A DNA stretch of 64,000 nt from the NCBI GenBank assembly GCA_009885105.1, contig VFLI01000016.1:62001-126000 (forward strand), given 5' to 3'. Origin of the DNA: Spirochaetia bacterium (lineage in GTDB: Bacteria; Spirochaetota; Leptospiria; Leptospirales; Leptonemataceae). The notes under the pieces were generated by a model. The model had not been told where the DNA came from. It ran no database searches and saw nothing but the letters and a program-made list of their open reading frames with translations. The first letter of the stretch is position 1. Each line of letters opens with the position of its first letter. The position numbers and the translations under genes were made by a program. Below, one piece after another: positions 26,768 to 32,808 of this stretch.

Positions 26768-28348
26768 ATGCCAGTCAGCGCCAAAAAACGTGCTTCAAAA
26801 CAGCACACCAGGGGAAAGAAAACCTCAAAAGGAGGATCCACAAGGATCGCTTCCGCGAAAAAATCGCCGCGATATATTGATAATATGAATCCGGCAACGA
26901 TGAAACTGATCAATCGTCTGCCGGTCTGCACGGAAGCAGATGTTGAGAATGCCGTCGCCGCGGCCCGGAGCGCCTATTCGTCCTGGAGCTCGCTTCCGCC
27001 TGAGGATCGGGCAGATGCGCTTGACCGTCTTCGCGAACAGCTCGTGAAGGATATGCAGGAAATGATCGACACGATATGCGAAGAGACGGGCAAAACGGAA
27101 ATGGACGGTCTGGTTGAAATTTTTACCGTCTGCGAGCATCTAAAATACGTTGCATCGCGCGGACCGCAGCTTCTTGCGGACGAGAAAAGATCAACCGGTA
27201 TTTTTATTCATAAGAAAGCTTACATCACCTACCAGAGCCGCGGCGTGATCGGTGTGATTTCACCGTGGAACTATCCGCTGATACTCACGCTTTCGCCGAT
27301 CATGCAGGGACTGATGGCCGGCAACACCGTTGTCGTAAAGCCTTCTGAAATCACGCCGAATACCAGTCTAAAGCTGCGCGAAATCGCCACACGTTCCGGA
27401 CTGCCGGAAAATGTTTTGAAAGTGGTCACCGGTTTCGGCGAAACGGGCGCGGCTCTGGTCGCATCGAAGGGCACGGATATGATCTGCTTCACCGGCTCTA
27501 CGGCCACGGGCAGGAGAATCGGAGAAATCTGCGGGCGGATGCTGAAGCCTGTCATTCTGGAACTGGGAGGAAAGGATCCCATGATCATATGCGCGGACGC
27601 CAATCTCGATCGCGCCGTCAACGGAGCGATCTGGGGCAGTTTTTCAAACTCGGGACAGACGTGCATTTCGGTGGAACGTATTTTTGTCGAAGAAAGCGTG
27701 TATGAAGAGTTCATGCAGAAGATAAGAGAAAAAGCGAGAGGCATCAAGCAGGGGCTTCGTGAGAATCATCCGAGCGTGGGTTCCATGACTTTTGAGAAGC
27801 AGGTTGGAATTGTCAAGACGCACCTGGCTGACGCTGAAAAGAAGGGAGCCCGTATTGAACTGTGCGGGGACCGTCCGCCGGGTCTCGCCGGACTTTTTCT
27901 GAACCCCCTGATTGTAACAAATGTTCAATCCGACATGCAGATCATGCAGGAAGAGTCTTTCGGACCGCTTGTTGCAATAATGAAATTCCGGGATGAGGAT
28001 CACGCCGTAGAACTGGCCAACAATACGGTATACGGCCTGAATGCTTCTGTCTGGAGCTGCGATCTGGATAAGGCGAAACGAATTGCGCGTCGCATACATT
28101 CGGGATCAATATGTATCAACGACGTCGATGTGAACTACATCGTGTCGGATCTGCCGTTCGGCGGGACAAAAGAGAGCGGCATCGGTCGCGTCTACGGTCC
28201 GGAAGGGCTTCGAGCATTTACCAATCCTCAGTCCGTTACTGTGGATCGCGCCGGTATTTTTGGAATCACGAAAGAAATTCACTGGTTTCCGTATACAGAA
28301 AGGAAACTAAATATTCTTAAGAAAACGGTGCGCTGGCTTTTTGGATAA
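26768..28348 (+). CDS. Aldehyde dehydrogenase with extended ends
   Basis: A 526-residue NAD(P)-dependent aldehyde dehydrogenase. The catalytic Cys299 is in NSGQTCISVERIFV, the general base Glu in LELGGKDPM, and the cofactor region in FTGSTATGRRIG. The substrate channel region GVIGVISPWNYPLIL is intact. The N-terminus carries about 35 Lys/Ser-rich residues (KKRASKQHTRGKKTSKGGS) that homologues lack. The C-terminus adds about 30 residues ending KKTVRWLFG, which might dock on a membrane. A good ribosome site (AGGAG) precedes the ATG, and a TTGACA box overlaps the stop of the glycosylase gene. Confidence 0.92.
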   Translation: MPVSAKKRASKQHTRGKKTSKGGSTRIASAKKSPRYIDNMNPATMKLINRLPVCTEADVENAVAAARSAYSSWSSLPPEDRADALDRLREQLVKDMQEMIDTICEETGKTEMDGLVEIFTVCEHLKYVASRGPQLLADEKRSTGIFIHKKAYITYQSRGVIGVISPWNYPLILTLSPIMQGLMAGNTVVVKPSEITPNTSLKLREIATRSGLPENVLKVVTGFGETGAALVASKGTDMICFTGSTATGRRIGEICGRMLKPVILELGGKDPMIICADANLDRAVNGAIWGSFSNSGQTCISVERIFVEESVYEEFMQKIREKARGIKQGLRENHPSVGSMTFEKQVGIVKTHLADAEKKGARIELCGDRPPGLAGLFLNPLIVTNVQSDMQIMQEESFGPLVAIMKFRDEDHAVELANNTVYGLNASVWSCDLDKAKRIARRIHSGSICINDVDVNYIVSDLPFGGTKESGIGRVYGPEGLRAFTNPQSVTVDRAGIFGITKEIHWFPYTERKLNILKKTVRWLFG

Positions 28349-28421
28349 TCCAATCGAAGAAAGCTGGAGATCTCGTCACATTCAGGAAAAGAGTATTGTC
28401 TGAACAAGAACCAATTCCAGA

Positions 28422-30023
28422 ATGAAGTTCGTCGAAATCACCATTGAAGATACAGGTATTGGTATCCCGCCCGAGAAATATTTGGATATATTTAAATCCT
28501 TCGAACAAGTTGATGCCACAATTGCGCGGGAATACGGAGGGTCTGGTCTTGGGCTTTCGATTACCAAACAACTCATCGAACTTCATGGAGGTGATATCCG
28601 GGTCGAATCAGTGCCTGGAAAGGGTTCCAAGTTTATCTTTACGCTTCCGGCATCGTCTGACAAACCGGAGCCGGCGGTCAGCAATCGAATATCTTCGGTT
28701 CACAGTTCAGAGTCGGCGACAACTGACTTACCTGTGGCAGCAAAGTTCTCGGGGGCGGATACGCTCAAAGTATGGAGCGATACTTTCTCAATCCTCGCTG
28801 TGGATGATGAACCAGTTAACCTCCAGGTCATTGCAAATATACTTTCGTTAGAAAATTACACCCTGACGCGAGCTCGCAGCGGCCAGGAAGCGCTTGAGAT
28901 GATCGAGCAGGGACTGAAACCGGATCTTATCTTGCTTGATGTGATGATGCCGCGTATGTCCGGCTACGAAGTATGCGCAAAGTTAAGAGAAAAAACGGGC
29001 GGAAATGAACTTCCGATCGTTCTTGTGACTGCCAAGAATCAAGTTCAGGATTTGGTAGAGGGCTTTGATTCTGGCGCCAATGATTATCTGGCCAAACCTT
29101 TCGCCAAAGCCGAACTTCTTACCCGGATCAAAACACATATACGATTATCACGAACTGCGACAGCATATGGACGTTTTGTGCCGCATGAATTTCTTAAATT
29201 TCTAAACAAGGAAAGTTTAGTTGAGGTTAGACTGGGCGACCAGGTGCAGCGTGAAATGACCATCTTATTCAGTGATATCCGGTCCTTCACCGGACTCTCG
29301 GAAACCATGACACCGGAAGAAAACTTTAACTTCTTGAATGCGTTCTTTCGCCGAGTCGGTCCTGTGATCCGTCAACATAAAGGATTTATCGATAAGTTTA
29401 TTGGTGATGCGATCATGGCACTTTTTCCAGAGAGTCCGGGTAATGCCGTAGACGCTGCCATCGCAATGAGAAAGATGCTTTTTGAGTATAATAGAAGACG
29501 CATATCAGAAGGCTTTTTGCCCATCGATTCCGGCACCGGAATACATACTGGAACTCTTATGCTCGGAACGATCGGCGAAGAAATGCGGATGGACTCAACT
29601 GTTATTTCAGACGCTGTCAATCTGACCGCGCGCCTGGAGGGTCTTTCTAAGACTTATGGAGCCTCGATTGTAATCAGTGAAAATGCGCTGACTGCTCTTG
29701 CCGATAGGTCGATCTATCGTTTTCGTTTCCTTGACAAGGTCAAAGTCAAAGGGAAAAAAGTGCCAGTTTCGGTCTTTGAGATATTAGACGGGGAGCCTGA
29801 AGAAATTATAATCTTAAAAATGGAAACCATAGGTGATTTTGAACATGGGACGCAATTGTATCATGGGCGTGAATTCACGCAAGCCTGCGTATTTTTCAGG
29901 AGCGTGTTGCAAGTGAACCATGCCGATCGCGCGTCCCAACTATATCTCAAAAAATGCGAGCATTTTATGGTTCATGAGCCGCCGGCCGAATGGGAAAGCC
30001 CGAACGAGATGACGGAGAAGTAA
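28422..30023 (+). CDS. C-terminal half of a sensor kinase: partial HATPase, receiver, adenylate cyclase
   Basis: A 533-residue reading frame that starts in the middle of a histidine-kinase ATPase domain. It lacks the phosphoacceptor His and N box. It begins KFVEITIEDTGIGIPPEKY (G1 box) and continues with the G2 box GGSGLGLSI. A complete receiver follows at about residues 125-245, with phosphoacceptor Asp173 in LILLDVMMP. A class III adenylate/guanylate cyclase fills about 285-450 with metal Asp residues in LFSDIRSFTG and FIGDAIMALF and NLTARLEG. The missing front half is encoded immediately downstream at 30035. Codon use looks more AT-rich than in neighbouring genes. The start ATG is the first Met after an in-frame TGA at 28401. 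Confidence 0.85.
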   Translation: MKFVEITIEDTGIGIPPEKYLDIFKSFEQVDATIAREYGGSGLGLSITKQLIELHGGDIRVESVPGKGSKFIFTLPASSDKPEPAVSNRISSVHSSESATTDLPVAAKFSGADTLKVWSDTFSILAVDDEPVNLQVIANILSLENYTLTRARSGQEALEMIEQGLKPDLILLDVMMPRMSGYEVCAKLREKTGGNELPIVLVTAKNQVQDLVEGFDSGANDYLAKPFAKAELLTRIKTHIRLSRTATAYGRFVPHEFLKFLNKESLVEVRLGDQVQREMTILFSDIRSFTGLSETMTPEENFNFLNAFFRRVGPVIRQHKGFIDKFIGDAIMALFPESPGNAVDAAIAMRKMLFEYNRRRISEGFLPIDSGTGIHTGTLMLGTIGEEMRMDSTVISDAVNLTARLEGLSKTYGASIVISENALTALADRSIYRFRFLDKVKVKGKKVPVSVFEILDGEPEEIIILKMETIGDFEHGTQLYHGREFTQACVFFRSVLQVNHADRASQLYLKKCEHFMVHEPPAEWESPNEMTEK

Positions 30024-30034
30024 GGCGATAATCA

Positions 30035-31723
30035 GTGATATCCCGCTTACTTTTCTCATTCGTCTTACTGTTCTTCCTGTCACGGCCAACCTTCGCACTG
30101 GATCCCGTTGTTCTCACGAACGCGTCCGCCAGAGTTTCCCTGGGACTTCATCTGGAATACCTCGAAGACCGCGAAAACAAATTGACGATAAATGATGTGA
30201 GCTCCCCGACGTTCGAATTACGATGGACACGAAGCGAGCAAGAAACGCCAAATTTTGGTTACAGCACATATACATATTGGCTCCGCTTCAGTCTGCTTAA
30301 TAACGCTGCATCCACCGAGCCGTTGTATCTGGAACTGTCCGATCCTTTCATCGATCGGTATGAATGTTACGAAATGGACAGAGGAATATCCCGGTTAATT
30401 TCTAAAGGAGGAGATTCGTATCCCTTCGGTCAACGGGCAATCAGTTATCGAAATTTTTTAATACAGTTGCCTCACGAGCTTGCCAGGAGAACCCAAACAA
30501 TATACTTTAGAATTGATACATCAGTGCCCGTCACTGTACCTTTAATAATTTGGCGAAATCAGGCGCTCACGAGTAAAATACAGGAGGAATACATCTTCTT
30601 TTTTATCATCTTTGGCGGGTTGGCTGCCATCGGACTGTTTAATCTGTTGCTTTTTTTTACAATTCGGGATTCTATATACGGATTATATTTCATCTACGTA
30701 GTTTCAATGAACCTTTGGTTATTGGTTAATTACGGATTCGCTTTCCAGTATATCTGGCCGCAAAGCACGTCCTGGGCAAATATTGCTTCTCAATTTTTCG
30801 CCAGTTTGGTGTTGGCCTTCTATATCGTTTTCGCGCGCAGATTTCTAAACCTCAAAAAAACAAGCCCGATCATGAATCACATTTTCAATCTTTTTCTAGT
30901 CCTTTCTCTTTTTACCGGTTTCTCCTGCTTTTTACTGCCCTATTCAATGAGCGACCAGGTCTCCAATATCCTTACGATCTCTTCGTTTCCATTCGCCCTC
31001 ATTGCACCCATTCTAGTTTTACGAAAAGGATATCGATCCGCCTTATGGTTTTTAGTGGCCTGGTTGTCATTGATGTTCAGTATGGGAGTATTTATCCTGT
31101 CACTTTATGGAGTGATTTCACTGAATTTTTTCACACAGAATGCGCCTCTTTTCGGCGCTCTTCTCGAAGCCATCCTGCTTTCCCTCGGGCTTGCTGATAG
31201 AATCAACATTCTTAAGGCAGAGACAGCCTCAGCACAGGTTCTTGCGATTGATAATCTAAAAAGAGCAGACCAACTGAAGGATGAATTCCTCGCAAACACA
31301 TCCCACGAACTTCGAACCCCGCTTAACGGAATCATTGGTCTGGCCGCATCCCTTGTGGACGGTGCACGCGGTGACCTTTCAGACGGAGCAAAATCGGATC
31401 TCGGAATGATTGCATTGAGTGGAAAGAGACTCGCGCATCTGGTGAATGATATTCTGGATTTCTCCCGACTCAAAAACAAAGATATCGAACTCCAGAAGAA
31501 AGCAGTTGATGTTCGTGTAGCAAGCGATGTGGTTCTGGCTCTTTTGAAACCCCTGACCAAGGGAAAGAACATAACACTGAAAAATGAAATTTCGGCAGAT
31601 CTGCCTGCTCTGGACGCGGATGAAAATCGAGTGCAGCAGATTTTGCATAATTTGATCGGGAATGCGATTAAGTTCACTGAGAAAGGCGAAGTTAAGATAA
31701 CAGCAAGAATGGTTAATAAGTGA
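30035..31723 (+). CDS. N-terminal half of a sensor kinase: 7TMR-DISM, HisKA, HATPase N box
   Basis: A 562-residue membrane protein with a GTG start and a signal peptide (about residues 1-21, cleaved after TFA). Residues 35-175 form an extracytoplasmic 7TMR-DISMED2-like domain. Seven membrane helices follow to about 390. The phosphoacceptor helix carries TSHELRTPLNG with His424. The ATPase domain starts and reaches the N box (HNLIGNAIKFTE), then the frame stops at TGA 31721 after KITARMVNK, before the G1 box. The remainder is encoded upstream at 28422. Alone it could not bind ATP in the normal way. Confidence 0.85.
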   Translation: MISRLLFSFVLLFFLSRPTFALDPVVLTNASARVSLGLHLEYLEDRENKLTINDVSSPTFELRWTRSEQETPNFGYSTYTYWLRFSLLNNAASTEPLYLELSDPFIDRYECYEMDRGISRLISKGGDSYPFGQRAISYRNFLIQLPHELARRTQTIYFRIDTSVPVTVPLIIWRNQALTSKIQEEYIFFFIIFGGLAAIGLFNLLLFFTIRDSIYGLYFIYVVSMNLWLLVNYGFAFQYIWPQSTSWANIASQFFASLVLAFYIVFARRFLNLKKTSPIMNHIFNLFLVLSLFTGFSCFLLPYSMSDQVSNILTISSFPFALIAPILVLRKGYRSALWFLVAWLSLMFSMGVFILSLYGVISLNFFTQNAPLFGALLEAILLSLGLADRINILKAETASAQVLAIDNLKRADQLKDEFLANTSHELRTPLNGIIGLAASLVDGARGDLSDGAKSDLGMIALSGKRLAHLVNDILDFSRLKNKDIELQKKAVDVRVASDVVLALLKPLTKGKNITLKNEISADLPALDADENRVQQILHNLIGNAIKFTEKGEVKITARMVNK

Positions 31724-31777
31724 TGAAAAAATATTAGAAAATTATAGCAAAAGGATTTTAATTTTTTTTAAGAACCT

Positions 31778-31807
31778 GCTGCTATCGCAGCGATGTTTAT
31801 AACATCG
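31778..31807. repeat. Two adjoining perfect inverted repeats
   Basis: GCTGC-TATC-GCAGC at 31778-31791 is followed at once by CGATGTT-TAT-AACATCG at 31791-31807. The T run lies before, not after, the repeats on the plus strand, so these are not an obvious terminator. They sit just past the edge of the rearranged kinase locus. Confidence 0.5.
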
Positions 31808-31820
31808 ATCAAGCTGAAAA

Positions 31821-31958
31821 ATGCTTGAAGGCAAATTTATTAATAGGACCTCAGCACCTCCGGTCTACACCGATTTCAACGGAGACGGCTTCGGCGACAG
31901 GATCGTCTATTATTTTTGCTCTATTTCTTTCCCGGTAAACTGTTCATCATCGATTTGA
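31821..31958 (+). pseudogene. Scrap of an FG-GAP-type repeat protein
   Basis: A 45-codon frame holds VYTDFNGDGFGDRIVYY, which matches the calcium-binding DxNGDGxxD loop of FG-GAP or VCBS repeats. Nothing before or after it continues such a domain, and the frame runs into the end of the patatin gene on the other strand. It is most likely leftover sequence from a larger surface protein gene. Confidence 0.4.
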
Positions 31959-32808
31959 AAAATTCAGGAAGGTCAGGCATCTGCGGCATATGATACGCGC
32001 CGGATGTGATATTTCTTATTTCATCGATGCGGTTGTTTGTTGCCTTGAGTCCGCCCGCGATGGCCTCAGATGTTCGATGATAATCCATGAATCCGATATC
32101 GGAAAGACCGGGTTCAATTGTTATGTCGGCCGGATGAAAAATTCTATTGTCCAGCCGGATCCGGTTCATCATTGTATTGATGGTGCCCTTCATGACGCCC
32201 ATGAGGGAAGCGTTCATCTCTCTTCCCGCATGACCGTCAAGATCCACGGCTATGACGATGTCGGCGCCCATTTTGCGCGCAAGACTGACCGGCACGGGAT
32301 TCAGAACTCCTCCGTCCACGAGCAGCATTTCTCCGTGCTCCTGCGGCGAAAGAAACCCTGGAATGGCGACGGAAGCGCGTATTGCGGGGAGAAGCGAACC
32401 CTCAAAAATATGAGCCTCCTGCATGTCGTTGAGATTCGTCGCGCATATTCCCAGCGGTTTCTGAAGCTCTTCAAACGAGCGCACCGGAAGATGTTCCTGT
32501 AAAAACTTCACAAATCGTTTGCCGCCCAGAAGACCGTTGTCCGTCAGCGTGAAATCCATCATGGAAAAAGTGACGCGAAGAGATCGGTAGTTGTTGGCAA
32601 AATCCTCCAGAGCAGTCAGAGCGCCCGCGGCATAGAAAGCGCCGATCACGGCGCCGGCAGACGTGCCGGCCACCATGTCGATTCGTATGCCGGCTTTCTC
32701 CAGCGCGCGGATCACTCCGATATGAGCCCAGCCGCGGGCCGCTCCCGATCCCAGCGCAAGCCCGATTTTCGGCCGGCGAAAGGGAGCGAATTTGCTCAGA
32801 GTGCTCAA
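31921..32808 (-). CDS. Patatin-like phospholipase (RssA type)
   Basis: A 295-residue patatin-fold serine hydrolase. The oxyanion loop is GSGAARGWAHIG, the nucleophile Ser50 is in GTSAG, and the catalytic Asp is in LLVDGGVLNPVP. Size and layout match the small RssA-type patatins that hydrolyse membrane lipids or fatty acyl esters. No signal peptide is present. Its ATG overlaps the stop of the acyl-CoA dehydrogenase by 4 bases, so fatty acids it releases could feed that enzyme; this link is inferred. Confidence 0.92.
   Translation of the reverse strand: MSTLSKFAPFRRPKIGLALGSGAARGWAHIGVIRALEKAGIRIDMVAGTSAGAVIGAFYAAGALTALEDFANNYRSLRVTFSMMDFTLTDNGLLGGKRFVKFLQEHLPVRSFEELQKPLGICATNLNDMQEAHIFEGSLLPAIRASVAIPGFLSPQEHGEMLLVDGGVLNPVPVSLARKMGADIVIAVDLDGHAGREMNASLMGVMKGTINTMMNRIRLDNRIFHPADITIEPGLSDIGFMDYHRTSEAIAGGLKATNNRIDEIRNITSGAYHMPQMPDLPEFFKSMMNSLPGKK

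Follow-up and report, generated by a model that had tools for sequence, protein, structure and literature searches.

Complementary halves of a receptor kinase-adenylate cyclase in swapped order: a candidate circular permutation in a Spirochaetia bacterium

Introduction

Proteins can become circularly permuted by duplication, or by fission and fusion (PMC3320104). The functions of a single protein may also be spread over two genes. In the split histidine kinase CheA3/CheA4 of Rhodobacter sphaeroides whole domains are divided between two proteins, and the pair has been proven biochemically (PMC3591291). The split mitochondrial cox2 of Campsomeris is another example; in that insect the two parts are separated by a 3-kb cluster that includes a putative nuclease gene, and both products have been reported (PMC5374615).

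In this work, we describe a locus from a Spirochaetia bacterium that resembles each of these cases in part. The window, i.e. the whole stretch of DNA that was analysed, covers 64,000 nucleotides of one contig. A sequence-only reading had proposed that two neighbouring frames in it are the halves of one sensor kinase/cyclase gene, with the C-terminal half placed first. We find that the locus is best read as a genuine one-point circular permutation of one receptor kinase-cyclase gene, to which we would give a probability of roughly 0.6.

Results

Two frames share one set of domains

Both of the frames that the sequence-only reading had described are present (Table 1), and Pfam distributes the domains between them in the same way. 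The N half matches 7TMR-DISMED2, 7TMR-DISM_7TM, HisKA and positions 2-32 only of the HATPase_c model, while the C half matches positions 38-109 of the 111 in that model, followed by Response_reg and Guanylate_cyc. The two ATPase pieces are therefore complementary, as had been claimed, with zero overlap and almost no domain residues absent. Counted together the frames hold every domain (DISMED2, 7TM, HisKA, HATPase, REC and cyclase), encoded as two frames in reversed order rather than as a single polypeptide with a continuous ATPase.

Table 1. Features of the locus, in positions of the window
Feature	Position	Strand	Length	Details
Aldehyde dehydrogenase (ALDH), left flank	26768..28348	+		MviN-ALDH neighbourhood conserved in family
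Left break zone	28401..28427	+		In-frame TGA, TRTNSR, ATG, AAG common to right break
C half	28422..30023	+	533 aa	ATG 28422 to TAA 30023; ATPase G1/F/G2 boxes, receiver, class III adenylate cyclase, helical tail
C-to-N joint	30021..30037	+		C-half stop TAA, 11 bp, N-half GTG
N half	30035..31723	+	562 aa	GTG 30035 to TGA 31723; signal peptide (by eye), DISMED2, 7TMR-DISM, HisKA, ATPase N box
Right break zone	31705..31723	+		...ARMVNK then TGA; AAG at 31718-31720
Hairpin 3' of N half, possible terminator	31777..31792	+		
Patatin-like phospholipase, right flank	31921..32808	-		Convergent; ACAD-patatin pair conserved in family

At 563 codons the N half is the shortest open frame among the 7TMR-DISM matches over the Pfam cut-off in this genome, the others having 591-1216. 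This family of receptors is a large one for a genome of 3.6 Mb (~44 members), and several of them occur in tandem groups (contigs C96, C111, C114 and C65). Another 7TMR-DISM match, at G000:C20:4448-5028, is interrupted by a TGA into two overlapping pieces and is possibly a pseudogene or a frameshift.

The sequence and the alignments show a complete receiver in the C half, with the acidic pair, the phospho-Asp, the Thr and the Lys (DDE, LLDVMMP, TAK and KP). The metal and substrate residues of the cyclase are also kept (FSDIR, DKFIGDA and SDAVNLTAR), and in the alignment its transition-state residues are in place. The roles given to these cyclase residues are those usual for class III cyclases.

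The relatives are single genes

The sequence-only reading had suggested that both halves be aligned to full-length homologues. When the halves are joined in the order N+C, the product is collinear with its best match within the class, a single open frame of 1119 codons (G027:C160), at 47% identity over residues 7-1095 (~1090 residues). Both termini of the joined protein coincide with those of this homologue (...MTEK vs ...MNEK). A second full-length partner was found in another genome (G023:C8, 43%), and a paralogue on the same contig, 66 kb away, aligns over its full length at 39% (C69:23175-26483).

Where a strong match to the C half in another genome extends to the beginning of the ATPase fragment, the frame that carries it always exceeds 1000 codons. 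Homologues with both parts as separate, stable genes in this order and with independent functions had been named as evidence against the proposal; no split gene was found in the 48 genomes of the class searched with the joined protein, or in the 393 genomes of the phylum searched with the C half. Within the genomes searched the split arrangement is unique to the source genome. No further genome of the same genus was found in the genome contigs searched, a set that may omit the source genome itself. The two frames are complementary parts whose order is reversed relative to the homologues; the collinear full-length homologues and the absence of the split from the other genomes searched support their being halves of one receptor kinase-cyclase.

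Both breaks fall in one loop of the ATPase

The two breaks map to the same loop, which connects the strand that follows the N box to the one that leads into the G1 box. Among homologues this loop has 19-37 residues, 21 being the mode (20 of 41 loops). It had been proposed that the break ends meet at a shared TGA (31721 and 28401). A TGA does occur at both positions and the frame arithmetic is right, giving a loop of 30, or 29 minus the stop, which is within the family range. However, this join is not unique. Joining at the AAG common to both breaks (31718-31720 = 28425-28427) results in a loop of 21, the mode, with the sequence VKITARMVNKFVEITIEDTG. In the closest homologue the loop has 26 residues and contains NSSM, matching NSRM at the ATG of the C half, so the six codons preceding that ATG may also be part of the gene. 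Whichever join is taken, the halves are complementary to within ~9 residues.

An aligned solved kinase, 7z8n, has a 5-residue insertion at the position of the cut, and the modelled C half opens directly with a strand (residues 2-10). The cut lies at the variable tip of a hairpin and not at a domain border. The structure model used here was built with a 12-row alignment and reached a pLDDT of 72, which is usable; a model without an alignment reached 35 and was discarded.

Possible origins of the swapped order

The observed order would also arise from a tandem duplication, or from a pair of tandem paralogues, if the first copy then lost its 5' half and, separately, the second copy its 3' half. 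Permutation through duplication and loss has been described (PMC3320104), and 7TMR-DISM genes often stand in tandem in this genome (several on C96, C111 and C114); the 11-bp joint between the halves also resembles an ordinary operon joint. On the other hand, this route requires two losses that end in the same intradomain loop, where there is no functional boundary; by our own estimate two independent random truncations fall within 9 aa of one another in a protein of ~1100 in ~1.6% of cases. In addition, neither blast, profile searches nor Smith-Waterman comparison against shuffles gave a supported trace of the N half upstream of 28422 or of the C half downstream of 31723. A weak tblastn match to the cyclase tail after 31722 failed the profile and shuffle tests and was rejected. 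We regard this history as unlikely. Of the circular permutation put forward by the sequence-only reading, then, the one-point version stands as the best explanation, whereas its tandem-duplication version does not fare well.

False contig joins could likewise have produced the arrangement, the real gene being unpermuted or located elsewhere. The source assembly is one fragmented draft genome (115 contigs, 78% complete), and the arrangement was seen in no other genome searched. Nevertheless, an artefact would need 2-3 false joins between break zones that share no word of >7 bases. No repeats beyond chance-like matches were found at the break junctions. The flanks are single copy in the assembly, the contig has no gap letters here and both frames are intact up to the break. 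Because the junctions are free of repeats, and the flanks and insert recur only as diverged paralogues, a repeat-driven misassembly would have no substrate. We hold an artefact to be quite unlikely. A search of the assembly for a second or intact copy, a donor or a circle returned only paralogues, with ~64-69% DNA identity over longer stretches.

For a one-point permutation we propose the following course. The ancestor would have been one gene that encoded a membrane receptor fused to a hybrid kinase-cyclase, in the order DISMED2-7TMR-HisKA-HATPase-REC-adenylate cyclase. The permutation would have occurred at the DNA level, presumably through a circle the size of the gene or through a single unit of a tandem repeat. 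This intermediate would have been opened once, by a cut in the coding sequence at the ATPase loop that separates the N-box strand from the G1-box strand. It may then have landed in the intergenic stretch between the convergent ALDH and patatin genes, leaving the 3' half first, then 11 bp, then the 5' half, and it would presumably be transcribed together with ALDH.

The kinase pair sits at the convergent border of an MviN-ALDH and an ACAD-patatin block; both pairs of neighbours are conserved across much of the family, and in the relatives inspected the kinase halves are absent alongside them. A scan for terminator-like sites gave none in the gap from ALDH to the C half and a weak one after the N half, which makes read-through from ALDH into both halves plausible, with the hairpin as a possible end of an ALDH-C-N transcript. 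The hairpin is weak evidence, as its class has 13 matches in the region where 7.7 are expected. The sequence upstream of the C-half ATG holds no evident ribosome site, which counts against the proposed permutation; TAAGG at the C-to-N joint could serve as that of the N half. The + strand of the intergenic stretch 3' of the N half (31840-31920) reads TDFNGDGFGDRIVYYF, which resembles part of an FG-GAP/VCBS repeat protein and is probably a gene remnant.

Parentage and conservation

Did both halves come from the same gene? GC3 is 0.474 and 0.469 in the two halves, an equality that fits a common origin. Values of about 0.47 are ordinary among the other kinases of the genome (0.44-0.56), and we dropped an inference of foreign origin from GC as weak since other kinases have a similar GC3. 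The best full-length homologue is identical for the N and C halves. Domain trees for four segments are too poorly resolved to place both halves sister to the same homologue, so the halves may stem from two different paralogues.

We counted a position as conserved when at least 90% of a set of 21 other kinases share it. Changes at such positions are rare: 0 of 34 in HisKA, 0 of 9 in the N-side ATPase, 1 of 27 in the C-side ATPase (T to S) and 1 of 32 in REC. In neither half are the changes more numerous than in intact homologues. All conserved ATPase residues but one are kept, which points either to a recent event or to selection that still acts on both ATPase fragments.

Predicted functions

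The C half is most likely a working receiver-adenylate cyclase that takes its input from other kinases, in which this genome is rich, with putative synthesis of cyclic AMP under the control of receiver phosphorylation. In the model most of the receiver, cyclase and tail have a pLDDT of 67-96, with weak stretches at ~248-274 and 382-394. The N half keeps its histidine, lacks the nucleotide-binding lobe and retains ~35 residues of the ATPase domain. We infer a receptor with a phosphorylatable histidine, and without kinase activity of its own unless the halves rebuild the ATPase.

Such a rebuilding is compatible with the permutation: the two products could bind one another and restore the ATPase, so that receptor, kinase and cyclase work as a two-chain machine. 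The nearly complete conservation of both fragments, the position of the cut in a variable hairpin loop, the adjacency of the genes, which may be co-translated, and the two-protein precedent of CheA3/CheA4 (PMC3591291) all speak for it. That said, a recent event accounts equally well for the conservation, the piece of the domain left in the N half is small (~35 residues), the model of the C half is less confident in its ATPase fragment (blocks of 38-72 pLDDT), and the known split kinase is divided between domains, not within the ATPase. A functional split kinase is thus very unlikely in our estimation, and the full picture of a natural kinase that is cut in its ATPase beta-hairpin, encoded by two permuted genes and reassembled to couple a membrane receptor to cyclic AMP is highly improbable.

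Discussion

Candidates for a split or a permuted signalling protein are rare, and we present this locus as one. Permutation is usually inferred from old, finished products. This case seems to have been caught early, with the halves intact and the loop still recognisable. If the permutation is true, it illustrates that a one-point event can leave two retained frames, and the locus would then also show, as a natural experiment, whether the ATPase of a histidine kinase can still work when it is split within a hairpin. Reassembly, if true, would make this pair a split kinase of a new form.

The closest relatives are the single-chain 7TMR-DISM hybrid kinase-adenylate cyclases of the same class, including the three aligned above. 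These share the domains, the joined order, the start, the end and the motifs, but each is one unbroken gene of ~1107-1128 codons, whereas here two frames stand in swapped order. As in circularly permuted proteins (PMC3320104), the C-terminal part comes ahead of the N-terminal part; here, however, the parts are two separate, unfused proteins in different frames, and the cut is intradomain. A limited literature search returned no precedent that combines two retained frames, a swapped order and an intradomain cut.

The two split systems offer partial parallels. In Campsomeris cox2 (PMC5374615) a single gene has likewise become two complementary genes, although the halves described here have no such insert between them. 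As in CheA3/CheA4 (PMC3591291), the functions of a kinase would be carried by two proteins; in the present pair, a putative split kinase, the ATPase itself is cut.
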